The translations under genes and the position numbers were made by a program. The notes under the pieces were generated by a model. It did not search any database and was not told where the DNA came from. It worked only from the letters and a program-made list of their open reading frames with translations. From Polytrichum commune (Eukaryota; Streptophyta; Polytrichopsida; Polytrichales; Polytrichaceae), in assembly GCA_950295325.1 (NCBI GenBank), contig OX485803.1, positions 74,293,554-74,357,553 on the forward strand: a stretch of DNA of 64,000 bases, written 5' to 3'. Of the stretch, positions 1 through 21,764 are shown one piece after another. The stretch's first letter is position 1. The number at the start of each line of letters is the position of its first letter.

Positions 1-264
1 TAGTAACAATCTTTAGTACACCAAACACCATGCACCTTCACACTATTCTTGTATCCACCTTCTAAGCCAAATGTTTGCTCCTTCAAGCATGTAAAATAGT
101 TCTCACATGGAGGAGCTTAGGGTTTAAGTATTGGTTTAGTAAGGTATAATGGCCGCTTTAGGTCACTAAAAACCCTAAAACGTGGAGCGTGGTAACTCTC
201 ATTTACCATGGTAAGTTAACTCATGGTTAGGTTTAGTTTATTGTTTGAACTGTGGTGTAGATTA
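1..264. other. Non-coding left flank of the LINE insertion
   Basis: AT-rich sequence without a credible ORF or recognisable repeat. It ends at the left target-site duplication of the LINE copy. Confidence 0.5.
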
Positions 265-277
265 TACTAAGTGTCCT
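265..277 (+). repeat. Left target-site duplication of the LINE
   Basis: The 13-mer tactaagtgtcct recurs exactly at 4626-4638, directly after the (TCTA)n tail of the LINE. It marks the insertion and the 5' truncation point. Confidence 0.85.
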
Positions 278-1787
278 TTTGGTACATCTAAAGTTACCAT
301 CTCCTCGGCAGCATATGCCGATGATCTCGCCGCAATTGCCAATAAATTAGAGACCCTCCAAACACAACTCAATAAACTAGACAAATTCTACGAATGGGCA
401 GGAATGGACCTTGGCATATCAAAGTGTGCAATTACTGGATGCCCAAACAAATCCAAACTTCACCCTATAACCTTTAAAGCCCTACTCCAAGCAACCAATA
501 TAAATTACAGAAACCAACCTATACCCGCCTTAAACCAACACGAACCATACACGTATTTGGGAATAAATCTTGCACCGTCACTCAAATGGAAAACCCAAAT
601 CAACACCACTACAGCTAAAGTAATTAAACAATATCAAGCCCTCATAGCATGCCCAGCTACTATGAAACAGAAAATTAGCATGGCAGATACGGTCATACGT
701 GCTGGAATAGCATACAACTTCTATGCAGTGCCATATTCCATACCCGCTATTAAAAAACTCGATAAAAAGATCATTGCTCTTCATAAAACGATTTGTGGCA
801 TACCCAAATGCACATCTAACATCGCTACACAACTCCCCCACAATCTATTTGGGATTGAAGCATTCTCATTACAAAATGCCTATCTAAGATGCCTAGGTGA
901 ACAACTACAAAATGCCCTCAATGATAAAGGTAGAATTGGAAAAATTTACACTGGTTTATTGCAATTCATATTCGCCAAATATGGAGGCTCTAAAGACATC
1001 ACCCGCATTAAATACCACCATTGTGTTAGATCACCTATTACTCGAACATTGTTCTTATTCAAGCATAACGCCGGAGTCCACCTCAAAAGTACAATAAACA
1101 ATTTCTTACTAAATTCATCCCCACTCGAAACTGTATGGATGCAAGAAGCACGTCACCTTCCTGGCTTAACTACTCACACCTCACTTATATTATTACACAA
1201 ACTGCTTACACACAATATAATCACACTAGACCAACTCACCATGCCCAATGGTACCACTCTAATGACCCCCGCCGAATTTAAATTCTTCCACTCTGCTCCT
1301 TCTAAACTCATACACAACGCTCTAAACATCGCTAATCAATTATTTTGTCATCCCCCTTGTAATCATTGTATCCTACCATGCCAACAACACCCTCCACCTA
1401 GATCCCTAAAAATTCCCTACATAATAAGCCCCCACGCCATTCTACCACACCCACCGACTGTCCCCGTACCCCCCCGTAATCTTCACATCCCCCATATGCC
1501 CCCTCCACCCAATGACATGCTTGAAGACCCCCGCAAATTTTCCATACATGAAATACTAGATCACAAACAAAGCCAATCTAATGATCATAACGTAATCAAT
1601 AGAATAGTCACGTCATACCTATGCCAATGGAAAACTGCAAATAATACCACATACCACAAGTGGCGTACCCAAAGGGACCTTTACCCCTACTGTGAAACCA
1701 ACACACACGCCTACTCACCCATTACTACACGACCAGACAATACAAACATTGTTCACATATCGTTAATGCCTACTTCTCCAAATCACA
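278..1787 (+). pseudogene. LINE reverse transcriptase C-terminal part and linker (broken)
   Basis: The open frame runs through the element's left end at 278 into flanking DNA, so there is no genuine start codon. The catalytic motif C reads YADD at 314-325, followed by a LINE-type thumb region (LDKFYEWAGMDL, then SKCAITGCPN). The frame stays formally open to 2143, but the meaningful reading moves to another frame near 1750-1790, where continuous protein-like sequence resumes. The remainder to about residue 510 is a Pro/His/Asn-rich linker region I do not recognise. Motifs A and B lie beyond the truncation, so this piece cannot encode an active polymerase. Confidence 0.8.
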
Positions 1788-2841
1788 ACATAAAGACACC
1801 AGATACGTCACACCACCCACAAGTATTCCCCGAGCACTTATTTCTATTAATGAATGTAACCCTGATAATAACATCAAAACAAACTCTGATATTATCCAAA
1901 TACAATTCGATGTCACCCACATATACGAAGATAATGGCCGCCACCTCATCACCATCCCAAAAACTCGATTACTATGGTTATGGACACAATACCACCTGTC
2001 CCACAATACTCCACACGGTCTCCAACCAACTACTCAATCATTCGAAACTGAAATTGTTTGGCTATATCAAAGATACAAGTACCGTATTCCAAAAAATGAC
2101 CCACTCAAGCGGGCCCAATACACACTACCCTCCCCAATATTAGATCTCCTAATTACAACATTCAATATTCACCATTCATACTTCTCCTCTCCAGTCACAT
2201 GCCCCACACATTTTACCCAATTCTACTCGCCATTTTCTCGAGACATTATATTTGGTTCCCTAGGCAAGGTGTTTGCCCATAAATGGCAAGGGATCGGCTA
2301 TGCACATCCTCACAACGCCACAGACCTACAACAAGCTATTCATTGGGCTCGCATGGCAGCCCAAAATGACCCACATACAATCACTATCCTTGTATCTCCG
2401 GATATTGATTGGTACCAAAACTCCACCCCGCATCAAGGCCCATTCCCGGACACACACGTCATTGCCCATTTTGCTGTTGATACTATCATATATGAGGAAC
2501 CCACAATCCCCCCCGAGCTCAACCTCACAAGGAAGGAACCATCAACCATACAAATATTCTGCATTCACCATCAAGATAATAACATTGCCACCTCCGACCA
2601 AATGAAATTACTACACGATACGGCCAATCGCCTCCAAATATTACACTGTTACACCCAAATTGCACCCCCTACTCCTTCAAACATCACCGTTAACTCCAGT
2701 AAAAACTGGTCTAAATCAAACTATCCTAATACACTCCTACACAATAACACCCCTACCCCCCCCCACTCCCAAATTACCATACAAACCTACCCCTTAAATT
2801 CCACCCCCAATTCAGCTACTACACTGATGGCTCCTTTATAA
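1788..2841 (+). pseudogene. LINE internal region of unknown function (broken)
   Basis: One reading frame stays open from about 1788 to 2841 and links the RT piece to the RNase H piece. Only its last 190 residues begin at a possible start codon (2269), and that is probably not a true start. Visible features are an ALISINECNPD stretch, many Trp/Tyr residues (LLWLWTQYHL, WLYQRYKYR), and a pattern with FAHKWQGIGYAHP followed by a hydrophobic strand TITILVSPDIDWY. This could be a folded domain between RT and RNase H. I do not recognise it. A frameshift near 2750-2815 separates it from the RNase H frame. Confidence 0.55.
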
Positions 2842-3245
2842 AACCCAAAGAAATTGCCCCTGGCGAATGGAGAAGAGAAAGAGCTGGCTACGGTATCTAC
2901 AGTCCCAAAGGCTTAAATATCGCCAAAAGACTCTATGGACACCAAAACATACTACGTGCAGAAATGATGGCTCTACACCAAACACTAACACTAATAAATA
3001 CCCAATTTCCTAATGAACCCGCATACATATTCACAAACAGTCTAAACGTACTCTATCTACTCAACACCCAAATTAAACATCCCACCCTTCATAATAGCCA
3101 CCCAGACCAAGTCACACTCAACTCCATGGTACAAATCCTTCAAAACCGTACACAACCAATCACAATTTCCAAAGTTCGAGCACACGTTAACATTGAAGGT
3201 AATGAAAAAGCAGATAAACTAGCAAAAGAAGGGTTAGAATTATAA
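2814..3245 (+). pseudogene. LINE RNase H domain (mutated)
   Basis: This is a type I RNase H fold as found in several LINE clades. The first catalytic Asp is in YYTDGSF (about 2817-2837), the catalytic Glu in LRAEMMAL (about 2956-2979), and the last conserved block is GNEKADKLAKEG near 3200-3235. The third block, normally TDS, reads IFTNSLNV here, so one catalytic Asp is replaced by Asn. A TAA at 3243-3245 interrupts the frame, which continues open afterwards into the endonuclease part. The stop and the D-to-N change both point to decay after insertion. Confidence 0.8.
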
Positions 3246-4277
3246 CACCGTATTGCTACTCACTCATATGAACATGCCCACGCCACCCCATACTATTATC
3301 AAAAAGACGTATGGGCCTCCATGATGGACGTCCCAGATAAAGGCCCTGTCAGATTCTTAGACAAACACATTATAAAATATGATAGGGAAACCAATATAGC
3401 ACTCATGGCCACACAAAGCCCCAATACTTCAAAATGGACAGAAAATGTACACATAGACAAAGAACTATCCAATGAATTTTGGACAAATCCCTTAATCACC
3501 GACAAACAAAAATCCTGCATTATTAAATTCCACACAGGAACATACATGGGCAATGCTAGGAAGCAATTGTTCTTCGGTCCCCAACACTACCCTTCTATTA
3601 TGTGTCCTATATGCAACTCAAACGAACCAGACACTTGGCTCCACGTTCTACTTACATGTAAACAACAACATATACATTCACTTAGAGTTAAAAGACATAA
3701 TAAAGCAGTTGGCAAAATTAGGAAGCTCCTAATCTCGTCCGAAAAATCCCGATGCTTTACTCTCATGAATGCCGGTACCTTCAATAATAATTCCCCCGAA
3801 AATACTGTTCCCAATTGGCTCCTCCCTTGTATATGTAGCACAAACAGGTGTCACTGTAACGCTAGATTTCGGCCAGATATACTCTGTGTAAAAGGACTAC
3901 CATATCAAAGCACCCCTCCCACTGACATTGACCCTAACCTCACCATACAATTTATTGAATTCACATACTGCAATGATAGATTTTCCTCAGAAGCCACTGA
4001 AGCAAAAAATCACAAATATAAGCCTCTAATTGATAGTATCGCTGCCAGAGGATGGAAAATCGAACCGCTTATTGTCCTCACAGCTGGGGCCAGAGCTATT
4101 GCCCACACCCCATCCATGGAAAGTCTTGAAACCAACCTCAAACTACCCATGGCTACCATCAAACATACCTTCAAAACCATTAATACCATCGCAATTCAAT
4201 ATGCCATGTCAATCCTCCTCCATAAACGGCGGATTGAAAACCACCAACCGCTCCCACAAAATTTAGACCCTCCATAA
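3246..4277 (+). pseudogene. LINE Cys/His motif and restriction-like endonuclease
   Basis: The frame is the same as the RNase H and is open from the 3245 stop to a TAA at 4275-4277; 318 residues follow the first Met at 3321. A zinc-binding motif CPIC-x8-H-x4-C lies near residues 95-112, followed by VKRHNKA. The signature RPDILC starts at residue 184, then IEFTYCND and an Ala/Lys block ending NHKYKPL, then VLTAGARA. This order (Cys/His motif, RHN, RPD, acidic strand, K-x2-K-Y) is what is known for the C-terminal PD-(D/E)XK endonuclease of R2-like and Dualen-like LINEs, which nicks target DNA to prime reverse transcription. This part alone looks intact. Confidence 0.75.
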
Positions 4278-4625: not shown

Positions 4626-4638
4626 TACTAAGTGTCCT
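4626..4638 (+). repeat. Right target-site duplication of the LINE
   Basis: An exact copy of the 13-mer at 265-277, immediately 3' of the (TCTA)n tail. Confidence 0.85.
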
Positions 4639-5218
4639 AGTCTTAGAAGAAGCTTTTAATCATTTTTTCAAGAATGTTACATTTAAGTATATCTCAATGG
4701 CAAAATCTAGAGCAAAGCGGGAGGGAGAGAGCTGACTTTTCAAAACTTGTACCAAGTTTGTACTTCCTTTTTTCAGAGGCCAAATCCTTCAGTTTCTTCC
4801 TCTTTGCAACACAAGGGTGGGTGGGTGGGAACATCTTCAAGACCCTCTCTATACATGTTTCATGCCATTTCCTATTTGATAGTATAGTACCACATTACAT
4901 AATAGAGTCATTTGCCTAATGTCTCATGGTATGTGTTGTGCTACACATATACACTTTGCATACCTAGTTTGCCTTGCAAGAATACACACCTTATTTGGAG
5001 TTTTTGCTATCATATGGTATTCATCCCCTCATGTATGATGTTAACTATCTCATGCTTTGGAAGCTAATTGCCAACCTTCTTGCCTCCTTATCAAGTACAT
5101 CTAACTATAACACCACATGTATGTTGTATTTACTAAGGAGAAGTACATAGTAACCTCAACCAATATATGTGCATAAAATGTCCTAATCACAATACATCAC
5201 TGCATTGACTGTGTGAGG

Positions 5219-5330
5219 GGCCTGCCTCACCTGTGCCCATGCAACCAACCAACAAACAATTGAGGATTAGTTACGTACACAAGGTAAATAATAGCAGGAC
5301 CCAATTGTTATCCACGTCACACACACTTAG
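5219..5330 (+). repeat. Dispersed repeat family R1, copy 1
   Basis: A block with catgcaaccaaccaac, then gattagttacgtacac and aggtaaataatagc. It matches 10685-10800 and 20775-20885 in the same orientation with scattered substitutions. No terminal repeats or coding were found. It is probably a fragment of an old interspersed repeat. Confidence 0.55.
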
Positions 5331-5798
5331 TTCATTTCAAATGCATCAAAATATTTCAACCTCTAACACTCATTGTAAAACAACATATGGGTGTTCAAAC
5401 ATGTTCTTTTGCCATGATTGGGTTACTCCAAGTAGAAAACTCATCTTGGTGATGAACCCTAGTTACTCTTACTTCAAGCATGTATCTATTACCCTAATGT
5501 GTATACTCAGAGCTCGCCGCACCTCTCACTTGCGTGAATGGTAAAAAAATAGTTCTTTTTTAGGGTTAAGGGCTTATATTGTAGTACTTACGTATGGTAA
5601 GTTCTCGTAATCCTATTTTTACTTCATTCATATGTATCTCTGTTACATCCGTTCCATGGTAAGTATGACTTCTTTCCATGTGCGTAGATATAGTGCCATC
5701 AGAGTTTATATTATCCGTTTTACATAAGAGACCTTTGCTAGGTCTATTAAAGTAAAAAGTTTAAACTTGAATTTTTATGCAACATGGCATTAGTATAG

Positions 5799-5801
<3 letters not shown>

Positions 5802-5837
<36 letters not shown>
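5802..5837 (+). repeat. (GA)n microsatellite
   Basis: A pure GA dinucleotide run of about 18 units. Confidence 0.95.
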
Positions 5838-10230: not shown

Positions 10231-10254
10231 ATCCGAGAGTGAGAGAGAGAGAGA
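10231..10254 (+). repeat. Short (GA)n microsatellite
   Basis: An imperfect run of GA dinucleotides, with a single GT interruption near its left end. Confidence 0.8.
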
Positions 10255-10684
10255 TACTCTATCAAAGCTTACCTTCAAGCTTCGTTGCTTCTTGAAACAT
10301 CCTCTTGTTCAGAGGCCATCTATTCTTTTACATATCTATGTGCCTTTCAAAAATTGGGAGGGTGTGTGGGATCACCCTTCATGACCATATTTGTGCATGT
10401 CTATTTCCATACTATTGTATTCATCTCATTTTGGTATACTACTAAACAAGTTAAAACCTTAGCCATCTAAGCTATTAAGGTTTCATACTTTGTATGTTTA
10501 AGCAACATAATGCCGTCCGTATCCTAAGTTTACAAAACCAAGTTCGATATAAGACGTATTCAAGGATACTTCCAGGTTCTATCACAACTCAAATATGCTT
10601 TACATTCCAAATCATCTCGTGGACTATCTAAGCAACATATACATATTTTTGAAAAAAGATGATATATAAAACCTAAGATTGCCG

Positions 10685-10800
10685 TCAAAATTGTGCAGGG
10701 TTTGCCTCGCATGTGCTCATGCCACCAACCAAATCCACATAGAGGGTTAGTGATGTACACGAGGTGAATAACATCAAAACCCTATTGTTATATATGTCAC
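10685..10800 (+). repeat. Dispersed repeat family R1, copy 2
   Basis: Matches 5219-5330 (catgccaccaaccaa, gggttagtgatgtacac, gaggtgaataaca). Confidence 0.55.
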
Positions 10801-11170
10801 ACCAACATGTACGGCATAATCATACAACTCATAACAAAGAATACACATATCACCGATGAGTATTCTACCCGTTCCTTAGCCATTTGAACCTTATGTGACC
10901 GAAATGTGCAGCAAGTTACACACACCTCCCACTTTTACTAATCCGCACCACTTACATAGAAGTAACTTAGGGTAAACGACCACTTGCGGCACAACCTTTG
11001 AAAGAAGGTTCATACGTTTCCTTTCACTTAATATAGGATTAGGTAACTATTCTTGACCATAGATTTTGACGTACTAGATCTATGGTGGGTATTTGTTAGG
11101 AACTTTTACCTAACCCTAGAGTATTTTTTTGGGGGGTTATATTTTGTTACTGTGTCAATCGATTAAGGAT

Positions 11171-12735
11171 GAGAGCTGACTAATCTTGTCTGGATTAGAG
11201 TCATGTCACAATAGGTCATGTCACACCTATTGTAGAGTTATGTTATGTAAAGTCATTGACAACATACATCCTTGTTGGAATAAGGTCTTGATAATCTCAT
11301 GGTATATATATGTGTGTGTACTTCTTAGTTATGAAATGTTTCCAAGAAGTCACAGATATGTGGTAATTTCTGTTTTATCGGTTGTCCGTTAACCATAATT
11401 TATATATGAGTCGTTATAGACCCTTATATTCATATCTGGATCAGACCAGTCTAGAGAGTGTCCTGGTATTATATTCACAGATATAAGCTCACTTCTTAGT
11501 CTGTAGTTTTAGATATTTCATGTGGTCAGTATCTCAGCAGTTAATCACCAACTGAGCAGACTTACTTCATCAATCCATCTATACTGAACAACTCTTCTTA
11601 GTCAGCAATAGGACTTGTAGTATAGAATATATACTCGTCCTAAGTTAGTATCCTCAACAACAGGTCCATATATACCCTTCATGATTTTATAGTAAAAAGA
11701 TCCAGTAACTTTTGAAATCACCATCAACCCATTTTCCTTCTTTCTCAATCTGCAATATCTCAACAGTACTTTATGTAGTTCGAAATAGTCTGTTCAAAGA
11801 ATACTGAATCAAAGAATTTACAGGGACAGATCCATGGGTATGTTTCCTCTGTAAATTTATAACATCCTGAAGTATAGTCAGATTATCACCACGTCTTATA
11901 TAGACAGGAATTGTACTTAACATCATTATTAGAGTATTATATGAAAATGATCACGAATGATAATACTCATCACCACTTCTCTAGGAGAAATTTCAAGAAA
12001 GATAATTGGTGAAGGGACAATTTCTTCCGAAGGTGCACCGCACTTGTAGAAGAGGTCCTCACCTGTGCCCATGCTCCCCAAATTACCAAAAGATAAATTA
12101 GTAGAGCGTACAACAGGTGTAGGCGGACCATCTTACTTGTTATCGATGTCAACAAGGCAATGCTACTTCCATGGAAATAGTTAACATACTCTTATATATA
12201 TATATTGAATTGCTTATGAAGAAGCATTTGTCATTCTTGAATCAAGAAATAAATGATAGATGTTAAAGTACATAAACTGATAATCACAAGAACTCATATA
12301 TATCGTCAAGTGTAGAATCATTTGATCGACACCTTATATTCATCTTGCGCTGAGCTATTCTTTTTGGTCATCTTGAAGAACAGTGTGATCAGAGTATATT
12401 GAGGTAATCGGCTCACAACCCTGCTTCACAGACTGAATCACCGAAATATTTCCTATGGTATCAGGATTTCGGGCCTTCAGGGATATGTTCAGTAATCTCT
12501 GTGGAACTACACCTCACGCTCAGAGACTGCACTCGCAGACTTATCTCTTCTCTACTTCACAGCCAACCTCTGTCACTCAGCACTATCCATCCGCACTATA
12601 GAGGTGAGCCGTAATGGCATCGAGGGAGTTCCTTCAGCGGTGCTTTCTGGGGCTTCAATCCCCTTCTTTATATTGTGATAGTACTTTTTTCACGGGCAGC
12701 CCGTCAACTTTTTGGACAGGAGCCCTTAAATCAAG

Positions 12736-12768
<33 letters not shown>
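11171..12768 (-). repeat. 3' terminal direct repeat (LTR or pseudo-LTR)
   Basis: Identical by eye to 17311-18908. It starts gagagctgactaatc and ends in a (GA)n run on the plus strand. It lies downstream of ORF2, so it is the 3' copy. The only long open stretches are 60-80 codons, duplicated in both copies, without recognisable content. Confidence 0.9.
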
Positions 12769-12771
<3 letters not shown>

Positions 12772-13110
12772 CCGCCATCCTTCCCTTGGTGGCAATGGCT
12801 CCCTATATGTGGATGAGTGGGGTGCACTCACCATATAGGGAGTGCACCACCAAACTCCTATATACTGTTAATAGTCAGTATAATGCTCTCAATTATAACA
12901 TGGTTAACTGTTTGAGTATTTGAAGTGATATCAGGGTCAAATGGTTACTAAGAAAGAGAAATAGCCCGTCACACTATTTGTGACAGAACTTTCTCATATT
13001 CTTTATAATCTGTCCGAGCGGAAAAAGGCAAAACGAATGCACTTATTTCCTATATATAGACAGAAATGTTGTTTAAGAACAGAATTAAGAAGGCACCATA
13101 TGTAAGGGAA
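12769..13110. other. 3' interior spacer of the retroelement
   Basis: Region between the ORF2 stop and the 3' repeat. On the element's sense strand a purine-rich stretch (aagggaaggatggcggga) lies just before the repeat. It could serve as a polypurine tract, but it is interrupted by pyrimidines. Confidence 0.35.
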
Positions 13111-15312
13111 TCATATGTAATTGGTAGGTCCGTAAGAAGGACACAACACTCTGATAGTTGTAGGAACTAACCTCTCTAAATATTGCACCACCCTCAAGAT
13201 ATCAAATCTGAGACCTGGGAATGAGCCATGTCGTAGAAACTTAATCAATCGGCTTTTTAACTTGTGTGGTCGGAACCCATTTTCTGTCAATGTTCGCAGC
13301 AGAAACTCCAATTCGTTCTGAGCGTCAAATTCGTTGCTAGACAGATACAATATTGGGAAGGCCTGTGACTGTATTATGTTGTATGATTGTGAAACACTGC
13401 GATTGGATCTGAATTGTAGAAATTGGGAATATCGAAAGGGTAGGTTTCTGCGCTTATCAAACTTGTGGGTCCGAAACACTCCATCAAGTTCATTCATGAC
13501 AGAAATCTGCATGTTCATGAAATGAGCACTAGTACCTCTTTTTGGAAACAACACGGAGAATTTGTCAATCTCACTTTTTATTTCCACAATCTGAAGTGGA
13601 TAAATCCAGAATGGGTTGGAAGCAACTCTTTCCGAGTTAGGGTCCATAAATTGCTGAATATCCCCATTATTAAGTATACATAGGTCATCAATGTATCGAA
13701 AGGAGTGTCTGAACCTCTTCATTAGGTCAGTCCTCCCTAGAGTAGCCAATCGGGATATAAAACTAGTTTCGTAGTATAGAAAATACAAGTTGCACCAGAG
13801 AGGACTGCATGAGAAGCCCATAGGGATTCCAGAAATCTGTTGCCATACTCGATCCCCTAGTGTGACAAAGCAATTTGAACTAAGCCATCGATTGAGACTT
13901 ACAAGCCTTTCCTCCGTAATCTCAACCCATATTTCACCATTTGGGCAGTGTGACGCCCATCTAGTTGAGGATGCATTCATTTTCCTTTCATCAAACCTGA
14001 CCCATAGGCTCTGCGTGGACCTTGGATGATCAATTCTTTTTTGCTGGAATGCAAAAGAGATTAATTCTGATATTGCATCCATTAAATTGTCATCACCCTC
14101 CAAGGGGATTGCCTCATAGCAATGTGCTATGTCGGCAACGAAAATATCGTAGACTTTATTCGGCAAATTAAGTGCTATGTCTAACACAGAATCTATCATC
14201 CAAAAATTCTTGGTCATAATTCCCAATATTGAGCAATAGGACTGAGTCCTTTTAGCAAACCACAGTTTAAGTACTGGGAGGATCCCCATTAAAGCCGCTG
14301 TGACCAATTGTGCAATAGTCGAAAAAACTGACATATGCGCATTAGTAAGCCAACGATAAGTATTCTTATGTTGTTTAAACGTACCCATCAGATAGGGTAG
14401 CCTAGCATTCTGGTGCGGTATTTCAGGCAAGAGGGAACATATGTCCTCAAAAACCATCTCCGCTTTCTTTAAGGGGTTAATCCACTCTCCTTTGTGCAGA
14501 CATGGTGCAAAGTCTTTACCTTGCAGGCGCAGTAAAGCCTGTGCCCGCATGTGGTTGACACAAATAAAGCTGGCATTGGACGAGGCTTTGTCAAGCCCTG
14601 CCATAAACAGGAACTGTTGGAGCCAATAAAGCTCATCCATGGCAGAATCAATCTTCTTAAGGGATGGTTGAGAATATTTAAAACCTCCCTCATTTGTTGA
14701 AGCTTTTTCTTTTAGAATCTGCCATGTCCTATTCCTGATCCAAGGGAATTGCTCAAGAGGGTCAATTTGTAAAATCATACAAACTTGAGACCAAGCTACC
14801 AGAACAGTCTCAACCACTTCGTGTAGAAGTGTTTGGCGAAGAGGGATATGATTCAGGCCATATATAAAATTCTGCCTGAGAGTATGATCTCTGATGATCA
14901 TAGTATCCATCGTTCGAACATGCATGTCCGTGACCGATGGGATTTGCATATCAGGGGTCTTTCCAGCCGTGTTAGGATCTAGGAATTTTATAAATCTCTT
15001 ATGGGAATTGCAGGGGCAGGGAGATTGGAAAGTGTTCTCATCAAAAACAAAGTCACGGAAGACTTTTGCTGGTCGATATGCTAACGAGCAAAACTGCTCA
15101 TGGTATCGCCATCCGAAAGTGATATATTCAAGGTGCATTGTTAAATCCTCATATCCTTGTCTAATAAGAGCCTCTATACATATATGGCGTATATTGACCC
15201 ACTCCATAGCCCTATTAGGGTATAGCACATGTACAAACCCAATCCTTTGTTGTTTGGATTCTTTTATCAATATGTTCTTTCCCAATACATCTTTCGCAAT
15301 AGATCTTGACAC
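13111..15312 (-). CDS. Reverse transcriptase (ORF2 of the retroelement)
   Basis: An intact frame of 733 codons counted from a GTG at 15312; the same frame is open back to 15360, just after a TGA, and has no ATG until about codon 36. RT motifs are visible in order: FKQHKNTYRWLTN from residue 312 (fingers), VADIAHCYEAIPL with catalytic Asp394 (motif A), ISGIPMGFSCSPLWCNL around 495 (motif B) and FRYIDDLCILNN with YIDD at 540-543 (motif C). After that come IYPLQIVEIKSE, an SAHFMNMQISV block and a FDKRRNLPFRYSQF block. The N-terminal part has CPCNSH followed by a stretch ending TLRQNFIYGLNHIPLR. This pattern resembles RTs close to Penelope-like elements rather than gypsy, copia or LINE enzymes. 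No RNase H, integrase or GIY-YIG domain follows. It is expected to make cDNA of its own transcript. Confidence 0.85.
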   Translation of the reverse strand: MSRSIAKDVLGKNILIKESKQQRIGFVHVLYPNRAMEWVNIRHICIEALIRQGYEDLTMHLEYITFGWRYHEQFCSLAYRPAKVFRDFVFDENTFQSPCPCNSHKRFIKFLDPNTAGKTPDMQIPSVTDMHVRTMDTMIIRDHTLRQNFIYGLNHIPLRQTLLHEVVETVLVAWSQVCMILQIDPLEQFPWIRNRTWQILKEKASTNEGGFKYSQPSLKKIDSAMDELYWLQQFLFMAGLDKASSNASFICVNHMRAQALLRLQGKDFAPCLHKGEWINPLKKAEMVFEDICSLLPEIPHQNARLPYLMGTFKQHKNTYRWLTNAHMSVFSTIAQLVTAALMGILPVLKLWFAKRTQSYCSILGIMTKNFWMIDSVLDIALNLPNKVYDIFVADIAHCYEAIPLEGDDNLMDAISELISFAFQQKRIDHPRSTQSLWVRFDERKMNASSTRWASHCPNGEIWVEITEERLVSLNRWLSSNCFVTLGDRVWQQISGIPMGFSCSPLWCNLYFLYYETSFISRLATLGRTDLMKRFRHSFRYIDDLCILNNGDIQQFMDPNSERVASNPFWIYPLQIVEIKSEIDKFSVLFPKRGTSAHFMNMQISVMNELDGVFRTHKFDKRRNLPFRYSQFLQFRSNRSVSQSYNIIQSQAFPILYLSSNEFDAQNELEFLLRTLTENGFRPHKLKSRLIKFLRHGSFPGLRFDILRVVQYLERLVPTTIRVLCPSYGPTNYI

Positions 15313-15367
15313 AACAGGTTTGTGGATGAAATCTGTTACATACCAGAGTAAGTAGTTCAGTCAAAGC

Positions 15368-17065
15368 TTAATCCCAGCTTATATTTCTGCCAAAAACTGG
15401 AGAAGAAATGGTAGATGTATTAGATCCACCACTAGAGCCCTCAACGCCACTGTGTAATTCATTATTAAGAGATACAGGCTCCCTGTGAGTCTCTGATCCA
15501 TGTACATTACTGCGGATGCGCGAGTTATCATTCTGTTGTTCATGTACAGCAGAAGATCCTCGGTTGCCATAACGCCTTTGATTGTTGTAAGCACCACGCC
15601 CTCGTCCAGGACCATGTGTATTAGGGCGCTGGTGTGAAGAAAAACCACGTCCCCTTCCACCATTTTGGGCCCGCTTATGAGGGTTATGACCAGAATCTTG
15701 GTTTAAGTCTGGTAACGCCCTTTTGAACGAGAGATTAGCCGGATGGCTAATTCCTACGTTAGAGCACGGCCTAATCATCCGTTCGATTTTACGGATGCCT
15801 GCACCATCACCGTGTTTAGCCAGCAACTTGTTCTTCGGAGTAGTTGCAAACTCCAAAGCGCCTTCAATCATCAGAGAACGTATATGTGCAAAGGTAACCG
15901 ATGCTTTGACAGCATCCCGAGCTGCAGTTTCTAACCAACCGATCAATGCTGCATACTTTGAGCAGAGATGCCCCTTAGCTGGGAAGAATAGATCAAGGTT
16001 ATGAATCATGCACCACACCGCATGATCGAACCAGATCATTTTTCCGGTACAAGCCTCCTTTGGTCCGTTTAAAGGGCAACCGCACCTTATGAATGGGCGG
16101 TTGACGTTCCACCAATTTTGGCGGTGTTTCTTATCCCTTTGAAGACCAAGGGGAAGATCCTGTCTAGTGCAGACATGTACCCCCTCCGTGATACTACACT
16201 TCTTGGGATCATAAGCCGAAATGGGAAAAGCAGCAGTAAGCTTACACCCATTTTTCAGAGGTTGTTCATTGTTGATTGCATTTGAAATAGCAATCTCAAC
16301 TTCTTGGTCGGAGAGGGAAGCCCAACACTTCCACATCTCAATCGTGATAGGCGCCAAGTGATTGATATTAGGGTGCATCCACATGCGGTTCTCAAGGCCA
16401 CCAAGTCGCAACTCCAATTGTCTGGGTGGGAGCCAAGGAACAGAAGGTCCTAAGCCAGAAGCCTCAAGCTTATCGAGGTCTGCTGCGGCTTGGTTAGCAG
16501 TGATATTAGCACAATACTGGAGGATCGCATCCTTCTCGTCTTCTGGTATCGGCAGTCTTGTTAGGAGCGACTTCGGCGGTTGTGATACAACATCCCTTGC
16601 GGGCGTGCTACCTATTATCAGGATCCTGCTTTTTGGCGGATTGGAACCCTTTTCCGGCGGGTTCTTGACTTCTGGGTTAGCACTTAGTAGGGCATCATCG
16701 ATAAGCTTAGTCTGAGCGGCCATACGCTCAGCATCTTGATCATCAGAGGCAAGAATATTGGGAAGATCATCGAACAGCTCCTGGAGCTTTCGCATTCCCT
16801 TTTCCTCCGAATGTAAACACGCATCAAGCAGCATAGTCCAATAACGCAGATCCAAGACCTCAAGCAAGGTAGGGGCATGTAAACCTTCGTCGTTAGTATC
16901 TGCTAGAGCCTCTGTATCAAGACGCTGCACAGCAGAATGAAAATTGATACTCGCGATTGAGGCCATAGTAGCCTGGATACCAGGAGTCGGCGGAGTTAAC
17001 GGCTCCTTATACCCCTTCTGCACCAGGTCGTTGTGCCAGCTCGGGGGCTGTGTATAGTCACCCAT
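15368..17065 (-). CDS. ORF1 protein, Gly/Arg-rich, probably RNA-binding
   Basis: Starts at an ATG (17065) about 245 bp inside the 5' repeat and runs 565 codons to TAA at 15370-15368. I recognise no family. The central part has a Cys/His cluster (RCGCPLNGPKEACTG, then WFDHAVWCMIHN, then HLCSKY) that could bind zinc. Residues from about 470 onward are rich in Gly, Arg, Asn and Gln with RGRG and GRGRG repeats, typical of nucleic-acid-binding tails. It lies directly upstream of the RT with an 8-bp gap between its stop and the opening of the RT frame, the place of a gag-like protein. No CCHC knuckle or capsid signature is seen. By position and composition it may package the element RNA; this is inference. 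Confidence 0.7.
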   Translation of the reverse strand: MGDYTQPPSWHNDLVQKGYKEPLTPPTPGIQATMASIASINFHSAVQRLDTEALADTNDEGLHAPTLLEVLDLRYWTMLLDACLHSEEKGMRKLQELFDDLPNILASDDQDAERMAAQTKLIDDALLSANPEVKNPPEKGSNPPKSRILIIGSTPARDVVSQPPKSLLTRLPIPEDEKDAILQYCANITANQAAADLDKLEASGLGPSVPWLPPRQLELRLGGLENRMWMHPNINHLAPITIEMWKCWASLSDQEVEIAISNAINNEQPLKNGCKLTAAFPISAYDPKKCSITEGVHVCTRQDLPLGLQRDKKHRQNWWNVNRPFIRCGCPLNGPKEACTGKMIWFDHAVWCMIHNLDLFFPAKGHLCSKYAALIGWLETAARDAVKASVTFAHIRSLMIEGALEFATTPKNKLLAKHGDGAGIRKIERMIRPCSNVGISHPANLSFKRALPDLNQDSGHNPHKRAQNGGRGRGFSSHQRPNTHGPGRGRGAYNNQRRYGNRGSSAVHEQQNDNSRIRSNVHGSETHREPVSLNNELHSGVEGSSGGSNTSTISSPVFGRNISWD

Positions 17066-17192
17066 GTGCTCACATTAGTATGTTCACAGGAACTTACGTC
17101 ACTTATATCATAAGTATCCTATTGACATAGCTGCCACAGTCCAGGAGAAGGCATAACAAGACAGGAAGACTGCTGTTCAGACCGTAGGAATT

Positions 17193-17234
17193 ATTCCACA
17201 GAAATTGGTCCACAGAAATTATTCCACAGAAATT
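17193..17234 (+). repeat. Three tandem 14-bp repeats in the element leader
   Basis: Three consecutive copies of a unit containing tccacagaaatt, between the 5' repeat and the ORF1 start. Role unknown. Confidence 0.8.
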
Positions 17235-17310
17235 ACTCACAAAAGAGTATACATACCACTCAGATTCTCAAGATACTTCAAATCCCTTTGAAGTAATGGG
17301 TATATGAGAA

Positions 17311-18875
17311 GAGAGCTGACTAATCTTGTCTGGATTAGAGTCATGTCACAATAGGTCATGTCACACCTATTGTAGAGTTATGTTATGTAAAGTCATTGAC
17401 AACATACATCCTTGTTGGAATAAGGTCTTGATAATCTCATGGTATATATATGTGTGTGTACTTCTTAGTTATGAAATGTTTCCAAGAAGTCACAGATATG
17501 TGGTAATTTCTGTTTTATCGGTTGTCCGTTAACCATAATTTATATATGAGTCGTTATAGACCCTTATATTCATATCTGGATCAGACCAGTCTAGAGAGTG
17601 TCCTGGTATTATATTCACAGATATAAGCTCACTTCTTAGTCTGTAGTTTTAGATATTTCATGTGGTCAGTATCTCAGCAGTTAATCACCAACTGAGCAGA
17701 CTTACTTCATCAATCCATCTATACTGAACAACTCTTCTTAGTCAGCAATAGGACTTGTAGTATAGAATATATACTCGTCCTAAGTTAGTATCCTCAACAA
17801 CAGGTCCATATATACCCTTCATGATTTTATAGTAAAAAGATCCAGTAACTTTTGAAATCACCATCAACCCATTTTCCTTCTTTCTCAATCTGCAATATCT
17901 CAACAGTACTTTATGTAGTTCGAAATAGTCTGTTCAAAGAATACTGAATCAAAGAATTTACAGGGACAGATCCATGGGTATGTTTCCTCTGTAAATTTAT
18001 AACATCCTGAAGTATAGTCAGATTATCACCACGTCTTATATAGACAGGAATTGTACTTAACATCATTATTAGAGTATTATATGAAAATGATCACGAATGA
18101 TAATACTCATCACCACTTCTCTAGGAGAAATTTCAAGAAAGATAATTGGTGAAGGGACAATTTCTTCCGAAGGTGCACCGCACTTGTAGAAGAGGTCCTC
18201 ACCTGTGCCCATGCTCCCCAAATTACCAAAAGATAAATTAGTAGAGCGTACAACAGGTGTAGGCGGACCATCTTACTTGTTATCGATGTCAACAAGGCAA
18301 TGCTACTTCCATGGAAATAGTTAACATACTCTTATATATATATATTGAATTGCTTATGAAGAAGCATTTGTCATTCTTGAATCAAGAAATAAATGATAGA
18401 TGTTAAAGTACATAAACTGATAATCACAAGAACTCATATATATCGTCAAGTGTAGAATCATTTGATCGACACCTTATATTCATCTTGCGCTGAGCTATTC
18501 TTTTTGGTCATCTTGAAGAACAGTGTGATCAGAGTATATTGAGGTAATCGGCTCACAACCCTGCTTCACAGACTGAATCACCGAAATATTTCCTATGGTA
18601 TCAGGATTTCGGGCCTTCAGGGATATGTTCAGTAATCTCTGTGGAACTACACCTCACGCTCAGAGACTGCACTCGCAGACTTATCTCTTCTCTACTTCAC
18701 AGCCAACCTCTGTCACTCAGCACTATCCATCCGCACTATAGAGGTGAGCCGTAATGGCATCGAGGGAGTTCCTTCAGCGGTGCTTTCTGGGGCTTCAATC
18801 CCCTTCTTTATATTGTGATAGTACTTTTTTCACGGGCAGCCCGTCAACTTTTTGGACAGGAGCCCTTAAATCAAG

Positions 18876-18908
<33 letters not shown>
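17311..18908 (-). repeat. 5' terminal direct repeat (LTR or pseudo-LTR)
   Basis: Second copy of the 1.6-kb repeat, upstream of ORF1 and expected to hold the promoter. A TATA-like tatatatata run near 18330-18342 is present in both copies. The copy ends in (GA)n next to ccc at 18909. Confidence 0.9.
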
Positions 18909-18910
<2 letters not shown>

Positions 18911-18940
18911 CTTCTTTTATTTTCTTATAAAAAGAAGAGA

Positions 18941-19272
18941 AGAAAGTTATGAAGGAAAGAAGCTTGCTGGGCCAAAACCCAGCAAGCTTCAAATGGCCAT
19001 AACTTTGTCATATGAAAGTCTATTTGAATATTTTTGGGTCTAAAGTATTCTACTTTCCAAGGCGCTTCTAGTCATGTGTCTAATTTTATTTCCTCCATAA
19101 CTTTCTTATTTCAAACACCCCAGTCAAAATAGACATATCACTAGAAGCGCCTTGGAAAGTAGAGTACTTTAGATCCAAAAAACATTCAAATAGACTTTCA
19201 TATGACAAAGATATGGCCCTTAGAAGCTTGCTGGGTTTTGGCCCAGCAAGCTTCTTTCCTTCATAACTTTCT
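18941..19272. repeat. Long inverted repeat (about 132-bp arms)
   Basis: The left arm 18941-19072 and the right arm 19140-19272 are reverse complements with few mismatches, separated by about 67 bp. Each arm also contains a perfect short palindrome, aagcttgctggg then ccaaaa then cccagcaagctt. A transcript would fold into a long double-stranded hairpin. It starts only 32 bp from the end of the retroelement. Confidence 0.9.
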
Positions 19273-19305
19273 TATTTCACATGCCCTCATCAAATCAAAC
19301 ATAGG

Positions 19306-19439
19306 ACTAGAAGCGCATTGGAAAGGCGAGCACTTTAGATTCAAAAAACATTGAAATAGACTTTCTTATGACAAAGTTATGGCCATTTGAAGCTTGCTGG
19401 GTTTTGGCCCAACAGGTTTCTTTCCTTCATAACTTTCTT
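19306..19439 (+). repeat. Third, diverged arm of the inverted repeat
   Basis: Runs in the same direction as the 19140-19272 arm and is clearly homologous (actagaagcgcattgg, then agcttgctgggttttggccc), but carries more substitutions. It could pair with the left arm as an alternative. Confidence 0.85.
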
Positions 19440-21764
19440 CTCGTCTTTTCTTTTCTTTCAAGGCATCACCTTCTTGCTTATTAATTTTTTTGAAGAGCAT
19501 TCAAAATCGTTTAGTTTGTCTTCAGTATTCAAATTTCCTTGTTCAAAGACAAATTGCAAGAACATTATTTAACAACCGTTACATTTAATTGTGAGTTTTC
19601 TACACGTTTGCTATATATGGCCTTCTGACTACCACATAGAATGTGTTGGAGTATGAGGTCCAAGTCTAAAAACTTCAAACAACAAACCCCTATCTCGGTC
19701 TTGCCTATGTAAGAGAATAGTGATGGCCCGCACCGGACACTGGTTTGGTGATTATATCATTGAAAAATATGTATTGGAATGGAAAAACAATTCAATGGAT
19801 ATTGACATACGAACTCCGAAATTGGTGATGAAAATGGATGTGGCTGTGATTTGAATTAGTTAATCATCTTGTACTATTTGCATGGTTAATGTCATAGGAG
19901 AGAGACGGCCTAAGAAGAAGAAGACGACCCATGTACCTTATCATGGGGTTTCTAACCATAGGAGTCTTGTTGCTTAATAATGTGGAAGAAGGATAATTTA
20001 TGAAGCCCAAACACACCAAGTTCCAAATAACTTTTCTTTCACATGTAGAATACAATAATTAAGACCAACTCAATTTGCAAGGTTTCAAATGTAACATGCT
20101 TGAAGCTTAAGAAGGTCCATTTCAAAACCCATTTGCTAGGTGGAAAGTTCAAAACCCCTTTATGTGTGTATGTATGTACAATTCACTATTGTATAGGAGG
20201 GCCGTGGCCAAAGCTATATGCATGTGTCTTATACGTAGTTCTCCCTTGCATGCATGGCAGGGTAACATGATATGGCCATTTACCAACAAATTATCTACTA
20301 ACACGTAGAACATCCCACAACAAAGCATCTAGAATCCCTCCTCCTCCTCATTAGCAAACCCTTATGACTGCACCTAGGGAGGCCATTCCGTGTACATTAT
20401 GAAACTACATGCGGCTACCCCTATATTATGTGCTATAAATAATTTCAAAAATCTTGTTCAAAACTATTTATATAAAACCATTAAAAACATACCTTATTTT
20501 ACTTTATTGAAATTTGTATTCATCATCATTTTTGTAGCAATGTTTGTAGTTGAATTTTGTGTCATTCCAGTTAGAAACGCTATGTTCAAAATAAAGAAGA
20601 GGTCACAAAATTTAGTTATCAATTTTCCCTATGTAATAGATACCGTGCACATCTACTCAAGGAAATAAAGTTGATCAAATTCTATCCATTTTGGTGATGC
20701 ATCTTAGAAGCACTAATTTCCTTCTTACCGCACATGGTCTTGCACTTAACAAATGGAGTGACATCCCCAAGGACTTCATCTAGTTGTCTCACGTGTGGCC
20801 ATACAACCAACAATCATCCTAATAAGGTTAGTCATGTACACAAGTTGTTCACAACATTATTCCACTTGTCATCAAGGTCACAAGTATACATACATAGAGT
20901 TTTACTGTAAGAGAGTACAAAAGAAAAAGTTATTGCTATGAATTGATTTTTGTTCTAGTAGCCCACAATGGGAGTGAACTCTATGAACTCTCTACACCTC
21001 TAAACCCTAAACCCTAAATCGTGTAGCATTAACTGCAAACACTACACCAACACCTTGGTTCAACAACCTTCCATATAAGATATTACCTCGCGGGATGGAC
21101 TTATCATATAGTAAGGGTTAAGGGCTTGCCCTAACCCTAATCCCTTTGCTTACCATTAAGTGATGGATGGCTCAACTATCTTACACATGGTTCAAATAGC
21201 TTAGAAGGCCTAGATGCCTCACATGTGGCAACCTATCCCATCCTTTAGACTAGGGTATGGGCCGAACCCTTTACCAAGTATGGCCGTCACCTCCCTAGTT
21301 TGTGTTTGGCCATGTAAGTCTATGTATGATAAGTTGTGAAGTATTTTATATTCTCTTGGCTCCTCGTAGCCTAATATTATATTTCATACCTTCATGGCTA
21401 TTCTAGCCCAATTTTATATATATTTTTGGATATATATTACATCTATGTATAAAACCAATTGAGAATATATATATAAATAGATAGAGAGAGAGAGAGTTCA
21501 CTTTTATCATGGTTGCAAGCTCATATGCAAACCCACAACATATTCATGGAACCATGCCATGAGATAATTGATTATCCCAATTGGTGCGTGTTACTATTTG
21601 GAGTTACGCAATGCAATAACATCTTACTTAGAAGTTAATTTCTTACTAACGAAAGTTCAATAGGTTGTTAAAACATTATAAAACACAAATGACTTTGCTT
21701 GGTAAAACGTTCCATTCACATTAAATATTCATAGCACTGCATGACTCTGAAGAGTGCCACACAA
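19440..21764. other. Intergenic region without a recognisable gene
   Basis: AT-rich, no supportable ORF. It contains the third R1 repeat copy and a short telomere-like stretch (taaaccctaaaccctaaa) at 21001-21018. Confidence 0.5.
20775..20885 (+). repeat. Dispersed repeat family R1, copy 3
   Basis: Matches 5219-5330 and 10685-10800 (catacaaccaac, aaggttagtcatgtacac). Confidence 0.45.

Follow-up and report, generated by a model that had tools for sequence, protein, structure and literature searches.

A two-protein LTR retroelement family of Polytrichum commune that inserts into (CT)n microsatellites and has no recognisable integrase

Layout of the element and its two proteins

The window (the whole 64,000-nt stretch of Polytrichum commune DNA analysed here, on contig 1 of the assembly) contained an intact retroelement with two ORFs and long terminal repeats (Table 1). 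Positions 11168–12768 and 17308–18908 aligned as direct repeats with 1600 identities over 1601 positions; since the sole mismatch was at 11170, the true repeats were those given in Table 1 and were 100% identical over 1598 bp, bearing out a reading of this DNA made earlier from its letters (below, the sequence-only reading). Apart from ORF1 and ORF2, no sense-strand ORF of at least 100 aa was listed in the interior.

Table 1. Features of the retroelement and of the LTR adjoining it
Feature	Position in window	Strand	Remarks
Retroelement, intact	18908 to 11171	minus	terminal repeats, ORF1 and ORF2
5' terminal direct repeat (LTR)	17311..18908	minus	1598 bp, same sequence as 3' LTR
3' terminal direct repeat (LTR)	11171..12768	minus	1598 bp
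(CT)n run opening the 5' LTR	18881..18908	minus	adjoins outer flank, marks target tract
(CT)n run opening the 3' LTR	12741..12768	minus	
ATGGGCACAG then GTGAGG in the LTR	18203..18212	minus	conserved, 5' splice-site-like
Conserved hairpin	17274..17295	minus	9-bp stem, GGGA loop, 15 nt inside 5' LTR; candidate signal for RT binding or initiation
ORF1, gag-like	15368..17065	minus	565 aa; from ORF listing
ORF2, reverse transcriptase (YIDD)	13111..15312	minus	733 aa as listed from GTG
G-rich tract, polypurine-tract-like	12769..12786	minus	TGGCGGGA; directly before 3' LTR
Older lineage-B LTR, apparently solo	10235..11170	minus	boundaries approximate; window element at its 5' end

The open frame of ORF2 extended upstream beyond its listed start without an ATG. 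In most copies inspected, conserved sequence of ORF1 and ORF2 reached upstream of any ATG, while ORF1 of the window does have one, and both ORFs began after a 3'-splice-like YAG. A spliced ORF start from the putative LTR donor ATGGGCACAG/GTGAGG was not supported, because the reading phase of the donor (phase 1) did not fit the phase-0 acceptors. A signal peptide in the LTR frame of the window was also discarded, the frame having stops at the same place in other copies.

In family profile searches, ORF2 was recognised as a weak reverse transcriptase (RT) core, with 18.2 bits against Pfam RVT_1 (cut-off 29.6), 19.7 bits against the NCBIfam group II intron RT (cut-off 300) and 14.5 bits against a PHROG RT family; ORF1 of the window matched no family in Pfam, NCBIfam or PHROGs. 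The ORFs of other copies likewise showed the RT core alone, plus a few weak matches at chance level, and no ORF of the window or of other copies matched integrase, protease, RNase H, tyrosine recombinase or GIY-YIG profiles. RT scores within the family were 16.7–23.8 bits, versus 115–143 bits for the best 150 RVT_1 places scored in the genome, taken together without assignment to classes. Profile searches against solved structures (with RT profiles of 4 and 6 sequences) gave no meaningful relatives of ORF1 or ORF2, and one scan of viral contigs found none.

The catalytic Asp and YIDD of ORF2 lay where the sequence-only reading had put them, the alignment numbering being ten residues higher. 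CxC, LDKA, IPMGFSCSPL and FRYIDD were kept in all six copies aligned. In its motifs the RT may resemble Penelope-type RTs. The C-terminal part of ORF1 was rich in Arg and Gly, and a CxC...C...H motif was kept in four of four aligned copies; the protein is presumed to bind nucleic acid. Both ORFs were under purifying selection: between the window and copy L040, pN was 0.12 for ORF1 and 0.16 for ORF2, and pS was 0.85 in both, with silent sites saturated.

Elsewhere in the window, a second lineage-B LTR (4626–5837; match 4626–5622) with a CT/GA run at its start (5802–5837) was probably another solo LTR. The 5' flank of the element (18930–19449) consisted of nested, MITE-like inverted repeats with arms of 56–106 nt and 91–95% complementarity, and gave weak matches, far below the cut-offs, to the plant miRNA precursor families MIR2606 and MIR2655. 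Long plus-strand ORFs occupied 245–4277, of which the first matched RVT_1 weakly (23.4 bits), perhaps the remains of a LINE; 1001–3000 had a strong negative GC skew.

A two-lineage family with repeats remade in every cycle

The search for further copies that the sequence-only reading had proposed was made in an assembly of 408 Mb in 64 contigs, seven of them of 42–78 Mb. It gave at least 72 matches to ORF1 and at least 65 to ORF2, indicating that the element was not a product of chance. The matches fell into two lineages with an RT identity of about 43%, lineage A with the window element and L039–L042, and lineage B with L043 and L044. When 39 of the 72 ORF1 matches were compared with the best RT places, an ORF1 match, in some cases a fragment, lay upstream on the same strand at 29 of 31. 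Among the matches listed, at least nine copies had both ORFs free of stops, which speaks against the "non-autonomous" lineage that had been one of two options in the sequence-only reading.

Six loci of 10 kb were compared. Direct repeats were found in L040 (1949 bp, 99.85% identical), L043 (977 bp, 100%) and L044 (1113 bp, 100%), and their interiors contained no third sense ORF of at least 120 codons. L041 and L042 had no repeat pair and L039 had one of 186 bp at 98%; these three are decayed copies. Thus the four copies read at both ends (the window element, L040, L043 and L044) carried ORF1 and ORF2 as their only long sense ORFs, and the lack of any partner enzyme, as first read from the window, held in all of them; an integrase or endonuclease ORF, the result named in that reading as counting against it, was not found in these copies. 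Thirteen GIY-YIG matches were present in the genome, none of them, compared by eye, at any listed RT place. Three of the 13 were on contig 9 (67 kb, with a GC content of 32% over the first 1500 bases), in open frames of 267–285 aa as in organelle intron homing endonucleases. The first 1500 bases of contig 10 had 68% GC and looked bacterial, and the assembly may hold contaminant contigs.

For lineage B, the last 240 nt of the LTRs were compared in ten copies, nine of which (all except L020) gave both ends. The two LTRs of one copy had no difference in eight of these nine and one difference in L031, while different copies differed from one another at 0 to 63 positions over the same 240 nt. Partial LTR pairs were in line with this (differences of 0/801 in L021, 1/284 in L015, 1/283 in L017 and 1/195 in L019). 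Changes common to both LTRs of one copy but absent elsewhere indicated that both were made from one template. These results showed that the LTRs are remade in every replication cycle.

A hairpin motif lay 12–16 nt inside the 5' LTR in 25 of 30 ORF1 loci, the copy in L037 being degenerate; a motif search of these loci did not find it in L012, L023, L033, L035 or L038. The lineage-A alignment (four rows, L014 being left out as identical to L013 in this stretch) had 36 of 36 cells paired and four of nine pairs changed on both sides, against 8–17 of 36 cells paired in slid control versions. The lineage-B alignment (ten rows, leaving out L029, whose stem was that of L024) had 64 of 70 cells paired and two of seven pairs changed on both sides; its slid controls had 5–45 of 70, with the largest counts at shifts of plus and minus 3. 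Beside the LTR there was thus a conserved hairpin showing compensatory changes; it may be a signal for RT binding or for initiation. A G-rich tract similar to that of the window preceded the 3' LTR in L039, L040, L043 and L044 and could serve as a plus-strand primer site. No hammerhead was found in the window, L040 or L043–L045, and other known RNAs or self-cleaving ribozymes gave no match at family cut-offs.

Insertion of the family into (CT)n tracts

Copies with a readable start mostly opened with a (CT)n run and closed with CTCTC(TCT). The run directly preceded the LTR in 18 of the 30 ORF1 loci (L009–L038). No run was visible in the other 12: in the lineage-A loci L009–L014 the LTR was longer than the flank examined, L033, L035 and L038 were decayed or partial, and the lineage-B loci L016, L019 and L032 had no run. 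For the longer lineage-A loci, a CT run was present in the window, L039, L040 and L042 and absent in L041. The 3' end was sought in 19 copies and was clear in nine, where GTCAG, GTCAA, CCCAG or CCCAA was followed by CTCTC(TCT) and then by unrelated flank. In the remaining ten, L017 and L020 had a long CT run, the match ran off or mis-ended in L021 and L031, and six gave no match. The ends were fixed in the copies read. On the right-hand side, the CT stretch of 11 full copies was at most 8 nt in seven and longer in four.

LTRs were also searched for on their own, scoring the best 40 of 770 candidates, a procedure which favoured complete copies and under-represented truncated ones. Among the matches listed, 41 of 51 were complete (at most 6 bases short at an end). 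Six full elements accounted for twelve of these 41. Another 27 had, by eye, no ORF1 or ORF2 match nearby and were regarded as solo LTRs; one tandem neighbour and one LTR beside an ORF1 fragment were left out. In a sample of 20 of the 27 solo LTRs, 17 had a left CT run of at least 20 nt. Of the other three, one had an interrupted run and two had 0 and 7 nt; these two seem to abut the end of another family LTR. Right-hand CT at solo LTRs (n = 19) measured 5–36 nt, with at most 14 nt in 14 and more in five. As a rough background, the 64-kb window had six CT/GA runs of at least 16 nt; two belonged to the element and one lay at another LTR of the family. The long right-hand CT of 4/11 full copies and 5/19 solo LTRs indicated that the position of the junction within the tract varied. 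No target-site duplication was seen in the flanks of full or solo copies, where a duplication within the CT tract would be invisible.

The left flank of L043 was a high-copy repeat (best 40 of 522 candidates scored), and 20 of its junctions were examined, 19 being the best after L043 and one (L137) being picked for its known adjoining solo LTR. Nine were empty sites, in which only a CT tract of about 21–115 nt separated the left flank of L043 from its right flank; the exact right-flank word was present in eight of them (in L129 after a few extra bases following the tract), and L133 had variants. Three were filled (L124, L134 and the chosen L137), with a family LTR after the CT run (E 5e-4 or better), and L136 was a weak fourth case (E 0.006). 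Three more had only 7 nt of CT and then other sequence, and in four the CT run led into sequence that was not assigned. In the filled L043 site both flanks were kept and the CT tract differed. Both flanks were also present at the solo LTR C7:23645787, with a few bases altered at the right edge; C5:29278488 had the left flank only, with an LTR-like start on the right, and C4:16725142 had the right flank only, with an LTR end on the left. The repeat ending in TTGGCAAGCTT(CT)n (L118–L137) seems to be an insertion hotspot.

The family also entered its own sequences: the window element and L044 were placed where older lineage-B LTRs begin with CT, and L020, L026 and L037 came after the CTCTC end of other LTRs. 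Empty sites and insertions at its own LTRs together indicated that the family inserts into CT microsatellites, its own CT tracts included. This target is a new fact, which the sequence-only reading had missed.

Proposed mechanism and relationship to known elements

LTRs are normally expected to come with an integrase. With moderate confidence, we favour the reading that the family is an autonomous two-protein LTR retroelement with a very divergent RT, which lacks any recognisable integrase, endonuclease, recombinase, protease or RNase H of its own and enters (CT)n/(GA)n tracts, probably by priming from (GA)n ends. Where the tract is nicked or broken, the 3' end of the GA strand would pair with CUCUC(UCU) at the 3' end of the LTR. 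The hairpin next to CUCUC(UCU) would hold the RT, and the paired GA end would prime minus-strand cDNA. On a template that is circular or terminally redundant, the RT would copy the LTR, run on through the interior and copy the LTR a second time, up to its (CU)n start; the (GA)n end of the cDNA would then anneal to the target's CT strand, leaving the host to close the gap. GA-end priming with two passes over the LTR would give two identical LTRs and fixed ends in the absence of an integrase, and would leave (CT)n at the left junction and a short CTCTC at the right one. Since no nick-making enzyme was recognised, the break would come from the host or arise spontaneously. Against a circular template stands that no known self-cleaving ribozyme able to produce circles turned up in the window, L040 or L043–L045. 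Tentatively, the family may even represent a separate retroelement order, having true LTRs without integrase, recombinase or endonuclease and being target-primed on (GA)n ends by an RT that passes the LTR twice on redundant or circular RNA.

Athena and Coprina are Penelope-like elements that lack an endonuclease. It is possible, if short of probable, that the present family is another such element, with pseudo-LTRs that target-primed reverse transcription would produce through partial tandem insertion; the mechanism overlaps with that favoured above, and the difference lies in kinship and in the origin of the repeats. Direct pseudo-LTRs and an internal start of reverse transcription at a stem-loop, both described in Penelope-like elements (PMC11167929), agree with such a kinship, and endonuclease-minus forms are reported from Selaginella and conifers (PMC9033089). 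The same paper describes such insertions as often 5'-truncated, whereas 41/51 LTR matches listed here were complete, in a list that favours complete copies. Hammerhead ribozymes are reported in Penelope-like elements (PMC11167929), but none was found in the five family loci searched, and the solved-structure profile searches gave no link for the RT.

In vitro, reverse transcription of a Penelope-like element started inside the RNA, at a stem-loop 111–118 nt into the ORF and downstream of the pseudo-LTR, where the RNA had no homology with the cut DNA (PMC11167929). Our family would likewise make use of a stem-loop, but its ends do share CT with the target. The family resembles Penelope-like elements in its direct terminal repeats, its RT with YxDD, the absence of integrase and a plausible start near a stem-loop, and it may be akin to them. 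It differs from them in its separate gag-like ORF1, its LTRs of 1–1.9 kb with fixed ends, a (CT)n target at interstitial places, the predominance of complete LTRs among the matches listed and the absence of a hammerhead, and from the canonical forms in having no GIY-YIG endonuclease. In rotifers, forms that lack the endonuclease are found in association with telomeres (PMC3846280). In contrast, the ORF places listed here were interstitial, the nearest contig end being about 0.5 Mb away, and had neither telomeric location nor telomere-repeat junctions: the junctions were (CT)n, versus the plant-type telomere repeat TTTAGGG, which among the contig ends read was found at both ends of contig 1 and at the starts of contigs 2 and 7. 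In the literature search, whose coverage did not take in key Penelope papers, no title or abstract described an element of this kind, and absence from print is not claimed.

LTR elements keep a primer site where the hairpin sits here, and the positions of the G-rich tract and the hairpin fit retrovirus-like cDNA synthesis equally well. A full cDNA might be made off the chromosome, with a primer at the hairpin site and the plus strand starting at the G-rich tract. Host repair, either single-strand annealing or microhomology joining, might then link the CT ends of this cDNA to CT tracts. The order LTR, hairpin, G-rich tract, LTR is that of LTR elements, the repeats are remade each cycle and many complete solo LTRs exist, all in favour of this route. 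However, the ORFs matched neither RNase H nor protease, and random joining predicts long CT on both sides, whereas the right side was short (at most 8 nt in 7/11 full copies and at most 14 nt in 14/19 solo LTRs); we consider the route rather unlikely. The family is like copia and gypsy in its remade LTR–interior–LTR structure, gag-like ORF, G-rich tract and solo LTRs, and unlike them in having no match to integrase, RNase H or protease, a weak RT score, a CT microsatellite target and no duplication seen outside the CT tract. DIRS and Ngaro elements are retroelements without a DDE integrase and have split repeats; our family shares the absence of that integrase but has simple direct LTRs and no recombinase ORF. 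Mobilisation of a dead or non-autonomous LTR element in trans, by the integrase of host LTR elements, is very improbable: the genome does have many full-profile RT places of other retroelements, but the family's open ORFs are under purifying selection, no short target duplication was seen and insertion was at CT tracts.

On the favoured reading of priming at (GA)n ends, the family links microsatellite breaks to retroelement insertion. Its natural empty and filled sites make the priming step open to direct testing. The family has been recently active, with remade LTRs, fixed ends and a clear target preference, and has achieved this with no recognisable integrase or endonuclease.
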